Positions 8,846 through 33,656 of a stretch of DNA of 64,000 nt are shown here, piece by piece (position 1 is the stretch's first letter; every line of letters starts with the position of its first letter). A program made the position numbers and the translations under genes. The DNA is taken from assembly GCF_000716335.1 (NCBI RefSeq), contig NZ_KL591006.1, forward strand, positions 151,330-215,329, in the 5' to 3' direction. This stretch comes from Streptomyces sp. NRRL S-118. Lineage in GTDB: Bacteria; Actinomycetota; Actinomycetes; Streptomycetales; Streptomycetaceae. A model generated the notes under the pieces. That model searched no databases, had not been told where the DNA came from, and saw nothing but the letters and a program-made list of their open reading frames with translations.

Positions 8846-8919
8846 TGACACCCTTCCAGGCGGTGTTCAAGAAGCCGCACACCCTGGGCATGCGCGCCGG
8901 CCCACCGGCGAGGCGGGCG

Positions 8920-9855
8920 TCATTCCCTCTTCCATGGCCGGAGCTTCTCCGGGTTGAGCACGGCCCAGATCCGCCGGATCCTGCCGTCCGCGATGTCGAA
9001 CGCGTACACCGACACGACGGCTCCGTCCAGGTGGGCGGCCAGACCAGGCTCACCGTTGACCGTGCACTCCCTGACCGCCAGCCGACCCGGGCGGGTCCGG
9101 CCGGCGAAGAAGCGGGCGATCCGCTCGGCACCCTCGATCGGGTGGGGCAGTGCCGTGACGAGCCCGCCACCGTCCCCGACGGCGGTGGCGTCCGGGTCGA
9201 GCAGGCCGATGAGGGCGTTGATGTCCTTGGCCTGCCACGCCAGCCTGAACTCCTTGACGACACGGGCCCGCTGGGCCGTCGGCGACAAGGGAGCCCGCGA
9301 GGCGCTGACGCGGCGGCGGGCCGAGGTCGCCAGCTGGCGGCAGGCCGCCGGGGTGCGGCCGACGATGTCGGCCACTTCGGAGAAGGGGTAGCGGAAGACG
9401 TCGTGGAGGACGAACGCCACGCGCTCCGCCGGGGTCATCGCCTCCAGCACGACGAGGAAGGCCATACTGACCGACTCGTCGAGCGTGACGCGATCGGCCG
9501 GATCGGCCGTGCTGTCGTCCATCGCGCCGGCGGGCCGATCGGTGCGCGCGGGCAGCGGCTCGGGGACCCATTCCCCCACGTAACGCTCCCGCCGCACCCT
9601 TGCCGAGCGGAGCACGTCGAGGCAGATACGGCCGGCGACCTTGGTCAGCCACCCCCCGGGGGACGCCACCGCCTCCTGCTGCCGCCGGGACATCGCGTAC
9701 CAGCGGGCGTACGTCTCCTGAACGACGTCCTCGGCCTCGGCCAGGGAACCCAGCATCCGGTAGGCGAGGTTGATCAGCCGGCGGCGTTCACCCGTGAGCG
9801 CGCTCGGCGTCGGGTCGAGTCGGCCGTCCTGCGGCGCGGTCGAACTGGGCGTCAT
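8920..9855 (-). CDS. ECF41-group RNA polymerase sigma factor (SigJ-like) with fused SnoaL domain
   Basis: This encodes 311 residues from ATG 9855. Region sigma2 (RRRLINLAYRMLGSLAEAEDVVQETYARW) is near residues 24-52. Sigma4 (MTPAERVAFVLHDVFRYPFSEVADIVGRTPAACRQ) is near 140-175. A C-terminal SnoaL-like domain contains GDGGG and ends NPEKLRPW. The fused domain replaces an anti-sigma factor and both stimulates and restrains activity in ECF41 proteins. The family often controls itself and a carboxymuconolactone decarboxylase-type gene; the only such gene here is at 17332-17838, not adjacent. A promoter close to the ECF41 consensus precedes this gene. Confidence 0.92.
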   Translation of the reverse strand: MTPSSTAPQDGRLDPTPSALTGERRRLINLAYRMLGSLAEAEDVVQETYARWYAMSRRQQEAVASPGGWLTKVAGRICLDVLRSARVRRERYVGEWVPEPLPARTDRPAGAMDDSTADPADRVTLDESVSMAFLVVLEAMTPAERVAFVLHDVFRYPFSEVADIVGRTPAACRQLATSARRRVSASRAPLSPTAQRARVVKEFRLAWQAKDINALIGLLDPDATAVGDGGGLVTALPHPIEGAERIARFFAGRTRPGRLAVRECTVNGEPGLAAHLDGAVVSVYAFDIADGRIRRIWAVLNPEKLRPWKRE

Positions 9856-9896
9856 GGTCCTGAGGCTCCCTCGGTCGGATCTTCCCTCACCTCCAT

Positions 9897-9923
9897 GACG
9901 AGGCAGCGCCCCGGAATGTGAGA
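9897..9923 (-). promoter_or_regulatory. ECF41-type autoregulated promoter
   Basis: On the minus strand TCTCACA (9917-9923) is followed by exactly 16 nt and then CGTC (9897-9900). The published ECF41 consensus, as I recall it, is TGTCACA-N16-CGTC, so ten of eleven positions and the spacing match. The start codon is 41 nt downstream of CGTC. Confidence 0.7.
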
Positions 9924-9945
9924 TCGGCGCACCGCCTCACATTCC
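9913..9945. repeat. 10-bp perfect inverted repeat overlapping the ECF41 promoter
   Basis: GGAATGTGAG (9913-9922) and CTCACATTCC (9936-9945) are perfect complements separated by 13 bp. One arm contains the promoter -35 element. It could be an operator or a divergent second -35 copy. Confidence 0.6.
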
Positions 9946-9999
9946 CCCGGGCCGCCGGACGGACGGTGGGACATGCTGGAGCGGTTGCTGACGCGCGCT

Positions 10000-11106
10000 T
10001 CAGCTCCCGGCCTGCCCGCCGCGGAACACCTCCCTGACGAGCCTGTCCAGTGCCGCCGGGAACACCTCGGCCGGGTTCACCGCTGCGTCGCCGGTGGTCA
10101 GCCCCGCGGTCAGGGTCCTGCGGCCGTCCGGCGTGCTGTACATCAGCGCCCCGTAGCCCCCGGGAGCACCGCCGTTGTGGTGGTGGACGGTGCCGCCGCA
10201 GTCCGGGCCGAGGTCCTGCACGAACAGCCCGAGGCCGTATCCGAGCGGCCCGTGCGGCGTGCACATCTCGGCCAGCAGCGGGGCCGGCAGGAGCTTGCCG
10301 CCGTTCAGTGCGGAGAAGAACGTGTGGAGATCCCGGGTGGTGGAGATCATGCCGCCGGCCGCGAGCAGCATGGAGAGGTTCTGGCGGGAGACGTCGACCA
10401 CCTTCCAGTCGTCCCCGTCCTGGTAGCGGTAGTAGCCGTGGGCGTGCGGCTCGGGGAGCTCCGTGGTGTCGCCCGCCAGCACGGTGTCCCGCAGCCCCAG
10501 CGGTTGCAGGATCCGCCGCTGCATCTCCTCGCCGTAGGTGCTGCCGGTCAGTTGCTCGATCAGCAGCGCGGCCAGGGTGTAGTTGGTGTTGGAGTAGCTG
10601 AAGCCCGTGCCCGGCTCGAACCGCGCCGGCCTGGACAGTGCCAGCCGTACCAGCTCCTGCGGCCGGTAGGCGCGCAGCCGGTTGTCCACCCACTCCTTCC
10701 CCGTGGCGGGGATCCCCGGCGCGAACGTCCCGTCCTCGCCGTACTCGCCGGTGTAGTTGAACAGTCCGCTGGTGTGCTGGAGCAGCATCCGCACGGTGAT
10801 CCGCGGGTCCAGCCCGAGCTCGGGCAGGTGGTCGGCCACCGGGCCGTCCAGCCCGATCCTTCCCTCGTGCACCAGTTGCAGCACTGCGGTCGCGGTGAAG
10901 GTCTTGGCGACGCTGCCCGCCCAGAACCGTCCGTCCGTCGGCGGTTCGGCGGTCTCGCCCAGCTTGCGCACACCGGCGCTGCCGACCCACTCACCCCGCT
11001 CGTCGTGCACACGCATCTGTATGCCGGCGAAGCCGGCGTCGACGAACGCCTCGATGGCCTTCTGCAGTTCCGGGCGGTCCGAACCGGACATGGTCGGGTT
11101 GGTCAT
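10000..11106 (-). CDS. serine hydrolase (class C beta-lactamase / DD-peptidase fold)
   Basis: This encodes 368 residues from ATG 11106, with GAGGGG eight bases upstream. Motifs in order are S65-V-A-K68 (nucleophile and general base), Y-S-N near residue 170, and H-N-G near 320, the variant of the KTG box usual in esterase-like members. There is no signal peptide, so a cytoplasmic esterase or peptide-cleaving role is likelier than antibiotic resistance. Upstream it carries one copy of the exact 25-bp element shared with the DUF4097 gene, implying control by the MarR-type regulator between them. Confidence 0.85.
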   Translation of the reverse strand: MTNPTMSGSDRPELQKAIEAFVDAGFAGIQMRVHDERGEWVGSAGVRKLGETAEPPTDGRFWAGSVAKTFTATAVLQLVHEGRIGLDGPVADHLPELGLDPRITVRMLLQHTSGLFNYTGEYGEDGTFAPGIPATGKEWVDNRLRAYRPQELVRLALSRPARFEPGTGFSYSNTNYTLAALLIEQLTGSTYGEEMQRRILQPLGLRDTVLAGDTTELPEPHAHGYYRYQDGDDWKVVDVSRQNLSMLLAAGGMISTTRDLHTFFSALNGGKLLPAPLLAEMCTPHGPLGYGLGLFVQDLGPDCGGTVHHHNGGAPGGYGALMYSTPDGRRTLTAGLTTGDAAVNPAEVFPAALDRLVREVFRGGQAGS

Positions 11107-27833: not shown

Positions 27834-27995
27834 GCCCGGCGCGGAACAGAGCCCGGCGACCGCCAGGAGAACGCGTCGACGCGTCCGTTCACTCCATCGG
27901 GCGGTGTGCGTCCTGCCGTCGCATGAGGGGCGGTCGTGCGGCCCAGGTAACCGGTCATGAGCTCCGCACCCCGCTCCCTCCCCGGGTCCGACGGT

Positions 27996-28601
27996 TCACC
28001 ACACACCGGGGACGAGACGTGCGGTGCGGGCGGCGTACTCCGCGTAGCGGGGGCCCAGCGCCGAGATGAGGACGACGTCCTCGGCACGGATGCGGTGGAG
28101 CATCCCGGCCAGGGTGCAGCCGAAGAACACGAGGTGGGCCCGGGGATGGTCCAGGGCGAACCCTGCACAGGCGACCATGAGCAGTCCTCCGGCGTAGGAG
28201 GGGTGCCGCAGGTGGCGGTAGGGGCCGGTGCGGATCACCGGCTGGCCGGGGCGGACGTCGACGGTGCCGCGGAAGTACTCGCCCAGGGTGGCCACCGCCC
28301 AGTGGCGCAGCGCCATCCCGGCCCAGACACCGGGCAGGGCGATCAGCGTGCTGGTCGCCCGGTCCCCGGTCATCCGTGCGGAGGGGGCGCGGCGCAGCAG
28401 GACCGCCGCGCCGGCCTCACCGAGGGCGATGGCACCGAACAGGACGTACGTGCTGCGCCGGTCCGCGGCGAGCGGCTGGGGCGGGCGGCGGCGGTCCGTG
28501 CGCCGCCGGCGCAGCGCCCACCTGGCTTCGAGTCCGTACTCCAGCGCCGCCGTGGCGCCCGCCAGGGTCCAGACGAGGGCGGCTTTCGACACTCCGGACA
28601 C
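27996..28601 (-). CDS. isoprenylcysteine carboxyl methyltransferase-family protein
   Basis: This encodes about 201 residues from GTG 28601; GTG 28592 is also possible. Four to five hydrophobic segments are followed by the family signature GPYRHLRHPSYAG and the downstream R-I-R-A-E-D. The fold binds S-adenosylmethionine at the membrane face (ICMT/PEMT superfamily). In bacteria substrates are varied (isoprenoids, phospholipids, aromatic carboxylates). It is divergent from the GNAT gene with 37 bp between starts. Any link to the peptide methyltransferase locus 1.2 kb away is speculative. Confidence 0.75.
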   Translation of the reverse strand: MSGVSKAALVWTLAGATAALEYGLEARWALRRRRTDRRRPPQPLAADRRSTYVLFGAIALGEAGAAVLLRRAPSARMTGDRATSTLIALPGVWAGMALRHWAVATLGEYFRGTVDVRPGQPVIRTGPYRHLRHPSYAGGLLMVACAGFALDHPRAHLVFFGCTLAGMLHRIRAEDVVLISALGPRYAEYAARTARLVPGVW

Positions 28602-28638
28602 CGGCTCCGGTGAGGATTTCCGAAGGGTGAGGCGAGAG

Positions 28639-29193
28639 ATGAGCGAGGTACCGGGCATGGGGAGTGGTGTTCCCTTCCGTCCTTTCCAGGACAGCGAACT
28701 CGCGATGCTGGACCGGGCGCTGAACGACCCCGAGGTGATGGGCCAGTACGCGTGGACCGGGTGGTCCGGCCACACATCGACGCTCCGCCAGCAGTGGGAG
28801 GCGAACCGGCTGCTGTCACCGGAGATCAGCATGCTGGCCGTGGTACGGGAGGACACGGCCGTGGGCGCGGTGACCTGGCGCCCGGTGGCCTACAACGGGG
28901 TGTCGCAGTGCTGGAACGTCGGGGCCTACCTCCTGCCGGAGGCACGTGGGCGCGGCGTGATGTCGAAGGCGGGCCGCGCACTCGTGGACTACCTCTTCGC
29001 GCACACCCAGGCCCACCGCATCGAGGCGCATGTGGAGGCCGGCAACAAGGCCGCGCGCCTCTGCGCCGAGCAGGCGGGGATGGTCTATGAGGGCACGGCC
29101 CGCGGTGCGGTCTGGCGCGGGGGCGGCTGGCGCGACATCGAGGTGCTGGCCGTGGTGCGCGGCGATGCCGCGCCGGCACTGGTGGCTGACTGA
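28639..29193 (+). CDS. GNAT-family N-acetyltransferase
   Basis: This encodes 184 residues from ATG 28639. The layout is RimJ/RimL-like: FRPFQDSELAMLDRALNDPEVMG at the start, AVGAVTWRPVAYN, GAYLLPEARGRGVMSKAGRALVDYLF containing the acetyl-CoA loop (ARGRGVMSKA) and HRIEAHVEAGNKAARLCAEQAGM near the end. Such enzymes acetylate amines of proteins, antibiotics or small metabolites. It ends 64 bp before the convergent end of the borosin-type methyltransferase gene. Confidence 0.85.
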   Translation: MSEVPGMGSGVPFRPFQDSELAMLDRALNDPEVMGQYAWTGWSGHTSTLRQQWEANRLLSPEISMLAVVREDTAVGAVTWRPVAYNGVSQCWNVGAYLLPEARGRGVMSKAGRALVDYLFAHTQAHRIEAHVEAGNKAARLCAEQAGMVYEGTARGAVWRGGGWRDIEVLAVVRGDAAPALVAD

Positions 29194-29257
29194 GAGCGTC
29201 GCCGGCGCCCGGCACACGCCGGGCGCCCGGCGACGCCCGGCACGTGTCCCTCGCCCG

Positions 29258-30046
29258 TCAACGGCGGGCGGCGAGGCGGGCCAGCAGCTCCCGGTCGACG
29301 GGCCGCGGCGGCAGGGGCGGCACCACCAGCGTGGAGGCCGCCGACAGTGGGGTGTCGGGGAGCTCGGCCAGGGGAACGGTCGTCGTGCGCGGCTCCGCCG
29401 TCACGTACGGCGAAGCCTCGTAGACCGTGACCGGGTGACCGGAACCGTAGGAGGCGACCAGGGCGTCGGTCAGAGTCGTGACGCCGGGACGCGCGTCGTA
29501 CCCGGGATCGCGGTCGATCATGCCGATCACACCTACCTGCCACAGGATCAGGAGGCCGGTGGGATCGAAGACGCGGTGGCGGATCAGGAAATCGGTCGCC
29601 TCGAAGCTCTGGCACCCCCGCTCTCCCGGGTCCAGGCCCAGGTCGGCGAAGAGCCAGTCCTCCGCCGAGCACGCCGGCAGCATCCGCGCCGCGATGCCCT
29701 CCTCGCGCGCCCTCCGGATCGCTTCGTGCCCGGTGTAGGCGAACACCCCGGGGTGCCCGTACAGGGCCACGCAGACGAACTGGTCGCGGTGCAGCTCGGA
29801 CATGATGTGTTCGACCATGTCCTCGTACGAGGCGGAACGCGGCTTGCCGACGGCGTAGTGGACGTCGAGCGTCTCGACCGAGGCGTTCAGCTTCTCGATA
29901 TGACGGGTGACCAGAGGGTCCCCGATCAGGCACAGCACCTTGTCGGCCTGTTCCAGACAGGCCCGTGCTTCGACGGTGAGGTCGCCGATGGCCCGGAAGC
30001 CGGTCCCCACGACGACGAGTTGCGCATTGCCCGTGGTTTCCTGCAT
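29258..30046 (-). CDS. borosin-type peptide backbone N-methyltransferase (split system)
   Basis: This encodes 262 residues from ATG 30046. It is a tetrapyrrole-methylase-fold SAM enzyme: VVVGTGFR (residues 11-18), LCLIGDPLVTRHI, VALYGHPGVFAYTGHEA (93-109, the SAM loop), MLPACSAEDWLFADLGLDP (122-140), LILWQVGVIGM. Residues Y64, R70 and Y74 in HYAVGKPRSASYEDM have the +6/+4 spacing of the catalytic Y66/R72/Y76 of fungal OphMA, and the YGHPGVF and SAEDxxFADL blocks also resemble it. Corrin methylases do not have that Tyr-Arg-Tyr set. OphMA fuses enzyme and substrate; here the chain ends after the methylase domain, as in bacterial split borosins (SonM type). The gene for a matching substrate precedes it by 32 nt on the same strand. 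The predicted reaction is iterative alpha-N-methylation of peptide bonds in the precursor tail. Confidence 0.88.
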   Translation of the reverse strand: MQETTGNAQLVVVGTGFRAIGDLTVEARACLEQADKVLCLIGDPLVTRHIEKLNASVETLDVHYAVGKPRSASYEDMVEHIMSELHRDQFVCVALYGHPGVFAYTGHEAIRRAREEGIAARMLPACSAEDWLFADLGLDPGERGCQSFEATDFLIRHRVFDPTGLLILWQVGVIGMIDRDPGYDARPGVTTLTDALVASYGSGHPVTVYEASPYVTAEPRTTTVPLAELPDTPLSAASTLVVPPLPPRPVDRELLARLAARR

Positions 30047-30078
30047 CGGACCACCGACTCCCTCGTGCGTTTGCTGGA

Positions 30079-30330
30079 TCACGCGCCGGACGGAACCTCG
30101 TCGGGGTCGAAGATGATGACGACGAGCACCGCGTGGCACTCTTCCTTGACCCCGCTGTGCTCCGCCAGCACGGCGCGCATGCGGTCCACGTCGCCGGAGA
30201 CGACCGCCTCGCGTTCCGAGGCGGTCAGGGCGCTGTCGGCGACGTACGCCTCCGCCGAGCGGCGGTAGGCGTGCTGCCGGCGTGGCTGGGTGACCAGTTC
30301 TTCCATGAAGTCGACTACTGCGGCAGGCAT
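30079..30330 (-). CDS. borosin precursor peptide: binding domain plus hydrophobic core
   Basis: This encodes 83 residues from ATG 30330, with AAGGAG six bases upstream. Residues 5-57 are a small helical domain (VVDFMEELVTQ, then YRRSAEAYVADSALTASE, then REAVVSGDVDRMRAVL) with the pattern F-x2-L ... Y-x-x-x-x-x-A ... LT-x2-E-x2-A-x2-SGD, the LigA-like borosin-binding domain seen in SonA-type precursors. Residues 58-64 are a short polar hinge. Residues 65-83 are a tail with the beta-branched run AVLVVIIF followed by DPDEVPSGA; this is the likely N-methylated core. The stop is 32 nt from the methyltransferase start, so the two form an operon with the substrate first. A LigA-type dioxygenase subunit is the alternative annotation but no partner subunit is present. 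Confidence 0.85.
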   Translation of the reverse strand: MPAAVVDFMEELVTQPRRQHAYRRSAEAYVADSALTASEREAVVSGDVDRMRAVLAEHSGVKEECHAVLVVIIFDPDEVPSGA

Positions 30331-30533
30331 GTTCGCTCCTTCTCGTGGGGGATGGAACGCTTACCAGAGCACCACAGATCAGGAGCGAAGTGGGCCATTA
30401 AGGATGTAAACCGCATCTACGAGTGAAGTTCGTCCCGGAGCCACGGCCAGCACATGACGGCCCGTCGCGCAGGGGCTCGCGCGGCCCGGTGCCGCGCCCG
30501 CGCCCGCGGCTCCGGACCGACCGACCGGGCCCT
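30331..30533 (-). promoter_or_regulatory. 203-bp leader/promoter region of the borosin operon
   Basis: It lies between the sacsin-like gene stop (30534) and the precursor start. The part from 30360 to 30430 is distinctly richer in A/T than the surroundings and includes TTTACA on the minus strand (30396-30401), a possible -35. No confident -10 or palindrome is seen. Confidence 0.35.
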
Positions 30534-33500
30534 TCAGTCGAACCAGCGGTCCCGGGCCAGCTCCTCCGTACGCGACGGGTCCTCCAGCAGCGCCGCCACC
30601 TCGAAGCGGCGCGGCCACTGGCCCGCCGCCCACGCCAGACCCGCCGCCACGCCCTCCAGCGTCGCCGCGTGCAGCGTGCCGTCCGGGGTGCGCCGCCAGT
30701 CCAGCTCGACGCCCCCGGCCCGCAGCTCCTCGTGCTCCACGTACGTGGCGGGCGTCGCGGGACCGAGCAGGGCGTGCACGGACTCCGGTACGTCGTGCTC
30801 CTCCCCGTCCGTGGTGACCTCGGCGTCGACCTCCTCGCTCAGCCGCGGCACCTGGAACAGCTCCGCCAGGTCCGCCGCCCGCGCCGGCGCCACCGGCAGC
30901 AGCGGACGGCCCGCGGTGAGCGGCAGCAGGTCAGGCGCGTCGGCGACCAGCGCGTCCGCCGCGTCCACCACCCGCACCTCGCCGTCGACGACCGCGCGCA
31001 ACTCGTCCGGCAGCGTCACCTGCTCCGGGTCCAGGTCGGCGAGCGCGGTGTACAGGCCGTGCAACTGCGCGGCCGTCACCTCCCGCTCCGGATCCGCGAG
31101 CCGCGCCAGCAGCTCGGCCGCCCCGCCCGGCTCGTCCAGCAGCGCGGCGACCGACGTCCGCACGCCCAGCGCCCGCAGCACCTGTGCGTCCGCGAACCCC
31201 GTCGTGTCCGCCGGGTCGTACAGGCCCTCCAGCAGCGGATCGGCGCCCGCGGCACGCAGACCGGCCGGGCGGCGGCCGTCCAGCACCGGATGACCGCGCA
31301 GCCACCAGGCCGTGTACGAGCGGACCGTCTCGGTCGTGCCGTCGGGCATCAGGATCCGTACCGGCTGGGTGAGCGCGTCCCGCAGCGGCGGCTGCGCGAG
31401 CAGCGCGAGCGCCCGCGGCCAGGCGTCGTCGTCCACCAGCTCCAGGTCCCGCACCGCGACGATCTCCGTCGCGACCGGCGGCACCGGTGTGTCGGGCAAC
31501 CGGTCCAGGACGTCCTCGCACCACACGTCGACGGCGTCGAGCACGCCCACGTCGTCCGGCTCGGGGAAGTCCCCGTCGCGCGGCTCCAGTTCGTCCGGGT
31601 CGAGGACGACGTCCGTGGCCCGTACGAGAGCGAAGCCGGCGAGCACCCCGCAGGCCGCCAGCGGCTGCTCGCCCCAGCGCTCGGCCGTCTCCGCGTCCAC
31701 CAGGGCCAGTTCGCCCTCGCGCATCACTGCGGCGAACGGGCTGCCCGGCAGGACCAGTTCCGCGGCCGGCGCCGGCTCGCCGTCCTCGTCGGGCAGCGCC
31801 AGCGCACCCAGCCACGGCTCGTCACCCGGCTCCAGACCGGCGTCGCGCACCAGCGCCAGCACCGTGTCGGCGAGCTCCTCCGCGTCCGGGGCGTCGTCGT
31901 CCCACACGTCCTCGGCATCCAGCGACGCCGCCACCGCCGCCCGCACCTGCGGGGTCGTCAGGACCGCCCGCGGCGTCGCCGGGAGGGCGCCCAGCTTCTC
32001 CAGCACCGGGTGCGCGGCATCCGGATGCGCCACCTTCAGGCCCAGGCGGGACAGCTCCGCCGGCGTGTCCGGCAACGGCAGCAGCACCTGGCGCGGCCCG
32101 ATCGCGGTCCGGCCGCCGGCCAGCGGCACCGGCAGACCGGTCAGCCGGTCCGGATCCACCCCCGCGAGCGAGTCGTACAGCCGGTACCACCACTCCGGCG
32201 CCCGCTCCGCGCCCGCGAGCCGGTCGATCGCCTCCCCCAGCGACAACCGCGCCACACCCAGCGCGCGCAGCTCGGTGCGGCGCTCCAGACCGGCGGGCAG
32301 CAACGTCGGCAGGACCTCCGCCAGCACGCGCACGGTGTCGGCGCCCGCCCCCTCGACGACCTCCGCCTCGAACGGCCGCAGGGCGTGCGGCTCCTCGTCC
32401 CCGGACGGCTCGGCCGCGGGAGCCAGGAACGCCACCCGCGGCAGCCGCTCCAGGACGGCGCCGCGGATCGCCCCGTCCAGGACACCCTTGCCGAGCGGGC
32501 CCGGCACGAGATCGATCGTGCCGGCCGTCACCGGCCGCCAGTCCGCGAGCAGTTCGGCGTACGCGTCGGCCGCGCGCTCCACCAGGAAGTCGGTCAGCGG
32601 CCCCGGCGCCGGGTGCCTGCGGGTGGTGTCCAGCGGGAACGTCGCGATCAGCAGCGCCGGGATGCCCAGCGGCTCGTCCGTGGGCGTCGGGGCGTGCACG
32701 ACGGGCGCGGTACGCGGCCGGACCGGCGCGCCCTCCCCGTCCACGGGCACCGCCCACGTCACCGACCAGTGCGGCCGCAGCCGCTCCTCGACGGGCCGGT
32801 CCTTCAGCAGACCGGCGTCGATGCCACCACCGCGGCTGACCGTCCGCCAGCGGTGCGTCCCGCTCCCGCTGTCCTCGATGTGCACGTACCCGTCCTGCTC
32901 GCGGCGCACGAGCGTCCGGGTGCCCTTCGGCCCGTCCACGACGATCTCGCTCAGCCCCGGCAGGGTCAGCAGCAGCGCGTCGTCCACGGCGTCGAGCAGC
33001 CGCCCGACCAGGTCCTCGGCGGCGGCATCCCGCAACGGCAGGATGACGACGGTGTCGTACCCCTCCGGAGCGGTGCCCTCCGCGGGCAGCGGGAGCCGCA
33101 GCAGCGGTACGTGGCCCTCACGGCGGCGCAGTTCGTCACCGAGGCCCGGGCTGCCCAGCGAGGCGTCGGCGGCCATCTCCCGCGCCTCGCGCAGCGACCA
33201 GCGGACGCCGCCGTGCCGGCCCACGACCGCCGGCTCGTCGCTCACCGCGAGCACCGCGGCGAAGCCGACGCCGAAGCGGCCGACCGCGCCCTCGTGGCCC
33301 TCCCGCTTGGCCGAGGCGCGCAGCGTGCTCAACGACTCGACGCCCGCGGCGTCCAGGGGCGCGCCGGTGTTGGCGGCGGCGAGCACGGCCCGGCCGTCAC
33401 CCGTCGCCTCCGCCGGGTGCAGCGTCAGCCGCAGGCGTCCCGGGACCCCGGCGCGGGCGGCGGCGTCGGCGGCGTTCTGCGCGAGCTCCACGACCAGCCG

Positions 33501-33656
33501 GTCGCGGTAGCCCCCGAGCGCCAGGTCCTCCTCGGCGTTCGCGTCCTCCCGGAACCGCGCGGGTCCGGCGCCCCACGCGTCGAGCACTCCGCGCCGCAGC
33601 CGTGCGGTCCCGAACGGGTCGGCCGCCCCCTCGGTCGCCGTAGCCCTCACGCTCAC
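30534..33656 (-). CDS. sacsin N-terminal ATPase-like (GHKL) protein
   Basis: This encodes 1040 residues from GTG 33656, with GGAG six bases upstream. The first 150 residues form an HSP90-like ATP site: N-box RLVVELAQNAADAA, G1 AANTGAPLDAAGV, G2 VGRFGVGFAAVLAVS. The remaining 850 residues are Leu/Ala/Asp-rich and contain several acidic segments (DVWDDDAPDAEELAD, DELEPRDGDFPEPDD). The combination matches large actinobacterial proteins with a sacsin-type ATPase module. They are thought to be chaperone-like; clients are unknown. Monocistronic. Confidence 0.85.
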   Translation of the reverse strand: MSVRATATEGAADPFGTARLRRGVLDAWGAGPARFREDANAEEDLALGGYRDRLVVELAQNAADAAARAGVPGRLRLTLHPAEATGDGRAVLAAANTGAPLDAAGVESLSTLRASAKREGHEGAVGRFGVGFAAVLAVSDEPAVVGRHGGVRWSLREAREMAADASLGSPGLGDELRRREGHVPLLRLPLPAEGTAPEGYDTVVILPLRDAAAEDLVGRLLDAVDDALLLTLPGLSEIVVDGPKGTRTLVRREQDGYVHIEDSGSGTHRWRTVSRGGGIDAGLLKDRPVEERLRPHWSVTWAVPVDGEGAPVRPRTAPVVHAPTPTDEPLGIPALLIATFPLDTTRRHPAPGPLTDFLVERAADAYAELLADWRPVTAGTIDLVPGPLGKGVLDGAIRGAVLERLPRVAFLAPAAEPSGDEEPHALRPFEAEVVEGAGADTVRVLAEVLPTLLPAGLERRTELRALGVARLSLGEAIDRLAGAERAPEWWYRLYDSLAGVDPDRLTGLPVPLAGGRTAIGPRQVLLPLPDTPAELSRLGLKVAHPDAAHPVLEKLGALPATPRAVLTTPQVRAAVAASLDAEDVWDDDAPDAEELADTVLALVRDAGLEPGDEPWLGALALPDEDGEPAPAAELVLPGSPFAAVMREGELALVDAETAERWGEQPLAACGVLAGFALVRATDVVLDPDELEPRDGDFPEPDDVGVLDAVDVWCEDVLDRLPDTPVPPVATEIVAVRDLELVDDDAWPRALALLAQPPLRDALTQPVRILMPDGTTETVRSYTAWWLRGHPVLDGRRPAGLRAAGADPLLEGLYDPADTTGFADAQVLRALGVRTSVAALLDEPGGAAELLARLADPEREVTAAQLHGLYTALADLDPEQVTLPDELRAVVDGEVRVVDAADALVADAPDLLPLTAGRPLLPVAPARAADLAELFQVPRLSEEVDAEVTTDGEEHDVPESVHALLGPATPATYVEHEELRAGGVELDWRRTPDGTLHAATLEGVAAGLAWAAGQWPRRFEVAALLEDPSRTEELARDRWFD

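Follow-up and report, generated by a model that had tools for sequence, protein, structure and literature searches.

The window, as the whole 64,000-nucleotide stretch of Streptomyces DNA analysed here is called, almost certainly contains a type IV split borosin pair. The enzyme and the precursor are encoded separately and adjacent to one another, the arrangement by which type IV is recognised. Together with genes for a GNAT acetyltransferase and a predicted membrane methyltransferase of the ICMT family, the pair very probably forms one unit (Table 1). The reading preferred here, with a probability of roughly 0.6, is that these four genes make up a route to a backbone-N-methylated peptide whose tail is capped by the GNAT and ICMT-like enzymes. 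The sequence-only reading had delimited the system at 29258-30330; both genes in that interval were placed correctly, but the unit has four genes and the part at 27996-29193 had been missed.

Table 1. Positions of the four genes and of two intergenic gaps in the window
Feature	Position	Strand	Description
Candidate precursor	30079..30330	-	83 aa, ATG start; predicted borosin-binding domain at about residues 1-58, then a hydrophobic tail
Gap between precursor and methyltransferase	30047..30078	-	32 nt
Predicted borosin alpha-N-methyltransferase (SonM relative)	29258..30046	-	262 aa, ATG at 30046
GNAT acetyltransferase	28639..29193	+	184 aa; ATG at 28657 is an alternative start; convergent with the methyltransferase
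Gap between GNAT and ICMT-like genes	28593..28638	.	46 nt between divergent genes; starts read by eye
Predicted ICMT-family membrane methyltransferase	27996..28592	-	198 aa, GTG start

The methyltransferase and its candidate precursor

The longest frame of the enzyme starts at a GTG at 30139 and overlaps the precursor; the GC content of the gene by codon position is 72/48/89%. The protein matches Pfam TP_methylase (PF00590) with 65.8 bits against a cut-off of 27.8, and its structural model (pLDDT 90) has a TM score of 0.90 to SonM (7ltc_A) and about 0.90 to OphMA, in keeping with the tetrapyrrole-methylase fold claimed from the sequence. A search of the PDB, which answers the suggested comparison with borosin methyltransferases, places SonM first (E 1.5e-48), with OphMA/dbOphMA and Mycena sequences next; the 25 distinct sequences matched at E<=0.1 all come from these borosin systems. 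Enzyme and SonM share 101 of 250 aligned residues. The four SonM residues mutated by Miller et al. (Y58, R67, Y71 and Y93; PMC8429565) are all kept, as Y64, R70, Y74 and Y96, and F99 and E146 are likewise retained.

Placement in a tree had been set beforehand as a check. The enzyme falls with SonM and its homologues (97/97), apart from the corrin-type and other TP-methylase domains of its own genome, in a tree of SonM, 13 homologues and the eight other TP-methylase stretches of the genome (two of which share one open frame); most of these eight are long-branched, only the split and not the order is readable, and the test covers corrin-type methylases. An identity as a corrin or siroheme methylase or as YabN was ruled out by this tree, by the PDB matches and by the NCBIfam models CobA, CobM/CbiF, CysG, CbiE, PRK06136, PRK05991 and YabN, whose cut-offs were applied and all seven of which match far below them. 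It is therefore barely credible that the enzyme belongs with the corrin or other tetrapyrrole methylases and has nothing to do with the small open reading frame: the PF00590 domain and the database names of its relatives (SAM-dependent or YabN-like methylases) would fit, but the three lines of evidence above and the paired precursor all oppose it.

The precursor gene has a GC content by codon position of 76/44/88%, like the enzyme gene the pattern expected of Streptomyces genes, and GAAGGAG lies immediately 5' of its ATG (by eye). Its differences from the copy in L001, a close locus of Streptomyces sp. NBRC 110611, fall on the three codon positions as 18, 11 and 19 over 83 codons, with no enrichment of the third, whereas those of the enzyme (34, 27 and 66 over 262 codons) are enriched there. 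This missing third-position bias is a weak point for the status of the precursor as a gene. However, in L001, L002, L017 (= L068), L069 and L070 a precursor relative sits immediately upstream of an enzyme relative, which argues that the pair does not rest on a chance open reading frame. A candidate precursor was identified (profile, E<=0.05) in 43 of 70 loci holding a relative of the enzyme, a count in which L001 and L017 belong to the search profile and several matches are weak. The genome of the window (G000, 7.93 Mb) matches the enzyme once and the precursor convincingly once; no further precursor copies were found in it, the five other matches all being at E 1.3 or worse.

The relationship of the precursor to SonA is weak in a single-sequence search (E 0.13) and reaches E 0.0034 with a profile of 11 relatives. 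The Pfam LigA domain is found below its cut-off (21.5 versus 25.3 bits); LigA is what the depositors of SonA called that protein. The model of the protein consists of five helices up to residue 58 followed by a low-confidence tail (mean pLDDT 69, pTM 0.48), and its top fold match is SonA (probability 0.99, but E 0.15). These observations give moderate support to a predicted N-terminal helical borosin-binding domain. Among the 11 precursor relatives (55 pairs), mean pairwise identity is 64% in the leader (residues 1-63) and 28% in the tail, and the tail is the less conserved part in 54 of the 55 pairs. A conserved leader and a variable tail are typical of RiPP precursors. A hydrophobic run of 4-9 residues occurs in all 11 tails, followed by an acidic stretch in ten, with PD in eight (counted by eye). 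In the window the run is AVLVVIIF (residues 67-74), again with an acidic stretch behind it; C65, the sole cysteine of this tail, is not conserved among the relatives. SonA is methylated at L63 and I65 (PMC8429565). In a gap-free alignment the run of the window precursor, from A67, begins about three residues later than these sites, so the likely sites of methylation would be about V68-F74.

These results largely agree with the sequence-only reading of a split precursor and backbone N-methyltransferase on the SonM/SonA plan. Both frames lie as it described, with the 83-residue precursor 32 nt upstream on the same strand. The helical, borosin-binding-like domain and hydrophobic tail are borne out by the model helices, the profile match to SonA and the 11 hydrophobic tails, at moderate strength for the domain. 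The SonM/SonA plan emerges alike from the sequence search, the mapped residues, the tree, the fold model and the gene neighbourhood, with methylation itself predicted from sequence.

Borders and distribution of the four-gene unit

The same four genes occur in the same order and orientation in all five close Streptomyces loci, which are related by descent and do not represent five independent gains: the window, L001 (NBRC 110611), L095 (G090), L096 (G311) and L097 (G298; = L017). In every one of them the precursor and enzyme share a strand, the GNAT gene is convergent with the enzyme and the ICMT-like gene lies on the precursor's strand. All frames of at least 70 aa at 10-50 kb of the window were compared with the other four loci and their 6-9 kb flanks. 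Matches at E<=1e-12 are confined to 27951-30423, the flanks being unrelated, and comparisons among the other four loci give the same borders. Since the shared frames end at these borders, the conserved unit consists of the four genes. The cassette is located on chromosomes and on one linear plasmid of Streptomyces. No sigma-70 promoter and no intrinsic terminator was predicted in 27900-30600; Streptomyces promoters are often of other types. Upstream of the precursor (30534-33656, minus strand) the window encodes a 1040-aa protein with a weak, sub-threshold sacsin-domain match, which is not conserved beside the cassette.

Outside the close loci the pair can exist alone, since neither a GNAT nor an ICMT gene is present in L002 (59% enzyme, with precursor) or, at E<=1e-8, in the more distant Streptomyces loci L098-L101. 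Among 66 loci with relatives of the enzyme, some of which end early at contig ends, the ICMT profile is found in two (L001 and L017) and the GNAT profile in three (the same two and, weakly, L064).

Any match to the enzyme is found in 11 of 392 Streptomyces genomes, and one of at least 65% identity in four, including that of the window. The ICMT-like protein is matched at E<=1e-25 in five of the 392: the same four, where it adjoins the enzyme, and G175 (42%), where there is no enzyme. A second copy (40%) lies elsewhere in G311. Fisher's test of ICMT against enzyme gives p 5e-9, a value that serves as a guide and not as a probability, given the relatedness of the genomes and the scoring of only the best candidates in each. 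In an overlapping order-wide sample of 391 genomes, the ICMT-like protein occurs in seven: G000 and G311, G638 with an interrupted frame (74%), and another four with 40-43% identity. No enzyme match exists in the five of these seven that lack the cassette. Relatives without the enzyme are those of G175, G445, G514, G527 and G597 (40-43%) and of G638, which lies on contig C214 (L140) and may be the remnant of a lost cassette. In the protein database, nine of the ten best ICMT rows (62-100%, the window's included) appear to share a contig with a precursor or enzyme row, and the tenth (NPDC052020) is absent from both of those lists. S. beigongshangae and NPDC058335 have enzyme rows without an ICMT row, in a list that also misses S. 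halobius and S. smyrnaeus, whose DNA does have the ICMT gene, so that these two absences carry no weight.

The GNAT is less exclusive, with matches at E<=1e-20 spread over 51 places in 48 of the 392 genomes. Next to the window itself, the top three belong to cassette copies; GNATs with 34-45% identity are frequent and account for the other 47 places, all outside the cassette. No precursor, enzyme or ICMT gene lies within about 1.5 kb of the GNAT in any of the 26 of these that were examined. In a tree, the five GNATs of the cassette group together (100/98), apart from the 26 others. In the plasmid collection 13 records match the enzyme, one of them from Streptomyces, and one matches the precursor.

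These distributions bear on whether the system is a plain two-gene split borosin, with the GNAT and ICMT-like genes as inherited passengers that act elsewhere. L002 keeps precursor and enzyme without them, transcription is divergent and the GNAT gene is read against the other three. However, exactly these two neighbours are retained in all five close loci, where every other flanking gene differs, and relatives of the ICMT-like protein are rare where the enzyme is lacking. The passenger explanation is thus improbable.

Proposed route to a capped peptide

The GNAT scores 62.4 bits against Pfam Acetyltransf_3 (cut-off 25.4; scored on the longer frame 28228-29193), and RimJ- and RimL-type enzymes, which acetylate N-termini, are among its closest solved and named relatives. 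Aminoglycoside acetyltransferase models also match it, far below cut-off. The ICMT-like protein scores 56.2 bits against Pfam ICMT (PF04140; cut-off 24), and its C-terminal catalytic region aligns with PDB 4a2n (E 7.8e-9). R129, H130, P131, S132 and Y133 are invariant in all 13 ICMT rows and form the RHPxY motif of the family. The cut-off of the protein-S-isoprenylcysteine O-methyltransferase equivalog NF040696 is missed (51.6 versus 160 bits). Enzymes of the ICMT family act at the membrane, where they methylate a carboxylate; the likely substrate of this one is the hydrophobic peptide.

In the preferred four-gene route, the helical domain of the precursor would dock on the dimeric methyltransferase in the manner of SonA and SonM, and the tail (about V68-F74) would thread through the active site and be methylated from N to C; helical-leader docking and stepwise N-to-C methylation are described for SonM/SonA (PMC8429565). 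By analogy, Y64, R70 and Y74 would surround the substrate amide and Y96 would help to hold the cofactor. The leader would then be removed by a protease encoded elsewhere, since the conserved unit contains neither a protease nor an exporter. That same lack could indicate that the small protein is methylated but kept at full length, as a regulatory or membrane-associated protein with no trimming or secretion. Against this stands the contrast in conservation between leader and tail, as in RiPP precursors, and retention at full length appears highly unlikely.

Following leader removal in the four-gene route, the GNAT would acylate the new N-terminus, and the membrane-bound ICMT-like enzyme would methyl-esterify either the C-terminus or an acidic side chain in the acidic stretch behind the hydrophobic run. 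The simplest product would be a linear N-acyl, N-methylated methyl ester. That the caps are these in particular, an acylated N-terminus and a methyl-esterified carboxylate, is a tentative proposal drawn from the enzyme families, held at somewhat less than even odds.

The main rival leaves only the ICMT-like enzyme in maturation and assigns the GNAT to self-protection, in which it would acetylate and so silence the active peptide in the producer. RimL/MccE-type enzymes silence microcin C by acetylation in the producer, and the available literature ties RimL-type acetyltransferases to that compound. The GNAT gene converges on the pair and diverges from the ICMT-like gene, and RimL and RimJ are among the named families closest to its product. 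However, toxicity of the product is a supposition, and GNATs also mature ribosomal peptides, for instance by fatty acylation of selidamides (PMC9505594). Self-protection is therefore considered unlikely, if the best placed of the alternatives.

More speculatively still than the caps themselves, the cassette may make the first borosin to be capped at both ends. Its product would be a short and hydrophobic peptide, N-methylated along the backbone, acylated at the N-terminus and bearing a carboxyl methyl ester, the last set by a membrane ICMT that had come to act on a ribosomal peptide. The four genes, carried together on chromosomes and a linear plasmid, would then be a minimal ribosomal route to permeability like that of cyclosporin, with no macrocyclisation. 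Such caps could yield an unusually robust, drug-like peptide and, if real, would offer a small genetic toolkit for making N-methylated peptides with capped ends. The sharply bounded unit, its two predicted tailoring enzymes and the natural tail variants provide a defined set for co-expression with definite expected masses.

Other borosin loci and known systems

Several further loci were observed. One Streptomyces genome (G377, contig C509; L099, L071, L078 and L079) encodes three borosin methyltransferase domains in a row, two of them in one 621-aa open frame. In L098 (G303, 8870-10063) a 398-aa Streptomyces frame holds both a methyltransferase and a borosin-binding-domain match (E 1.1e-4), and by its sequence looks like a fused borosin. 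In seven cyanobacterial loci (L007, L008, L021, L023, L024, L029 and L038) the candidate precursors have tails with abundant Asp-Pro repeats and lie about 1-2.5 kb downstream of the enzyme instead of directly before it. Archaeal contigs, two from Thermoplasmata and one from Methanomassiliicoccus (L018, L030 and L051), carry enzyme relatives with 45-48% identity, and L018 and L030 also have a borosin-binding-domain match.

Borosin types are described up to XI (PMC11395268); a review presents types IV-X as bacterial and widespread (PMC11285071). As of 2021, according to Miller et al. (PMC8429565), a link to a final natural product was still lacking for every type IV pathway. The sequence-only reading expected a new N-methylated peptide, but the kind of system is not itself new: the same study validated a Streptomyces pair. 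In the open literature no paper joining borosin with isoprenylcysteine was found, the main borosin mining papers lying outside that search, and the cassette may have been noted before. For borosin with acetyltransferase, the available text of PMC9505594 describes no such cluster; for isoprenylcysteine carboxyl methyltransferase with RiPP, one match concerned, in the text available, a polyketide cluster.

The ICMT-like protein shares PF04140 and the catalytic region with the isoprenylcysteine carboxyl methyltransferase of PDB 4a2n, and differs in missing the equivalog cut-off and in the lack of conservation of the tail cysteine C65. OphMA, dbOphMA and the Mycena fused borosins have the same methyltransferase fold as the window enzyme (TM 0.87-0.91 in the matches listed), but their core peptide is fused to the enzyme, whereas in the window it is part of a separate protein. 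SonM/SonA of Shewanella oneidensis MR-1 resembles the window in its separate enzyme and precursor, the four mutated active-site residues, the helical leader and the hydrophobic tail. The window enzyme differs from SonM in a side clamp three residues shorter and in the replacement of top-clamp Q178 by P181, and the hydrophobic run of its precursor lies a few residues later. The window also adds the conserved GNAT and ICMT-like genes, in a comparison made with SonM/SonA by the pair alone. The Streptomyces sp. NRRL S-118 pair, studied with SonM/SonA by co-expression and LC-MS/MS, consists of a 263-aa enzyme beside a precursor of ~75 residues, with alpha-N-methylation confirmed (PMC8429565). It is like the window in its Streptomyces host and in the sizes of enzyme and precursor, as far as the text available describes it, and may hold the same four-gene cassette.
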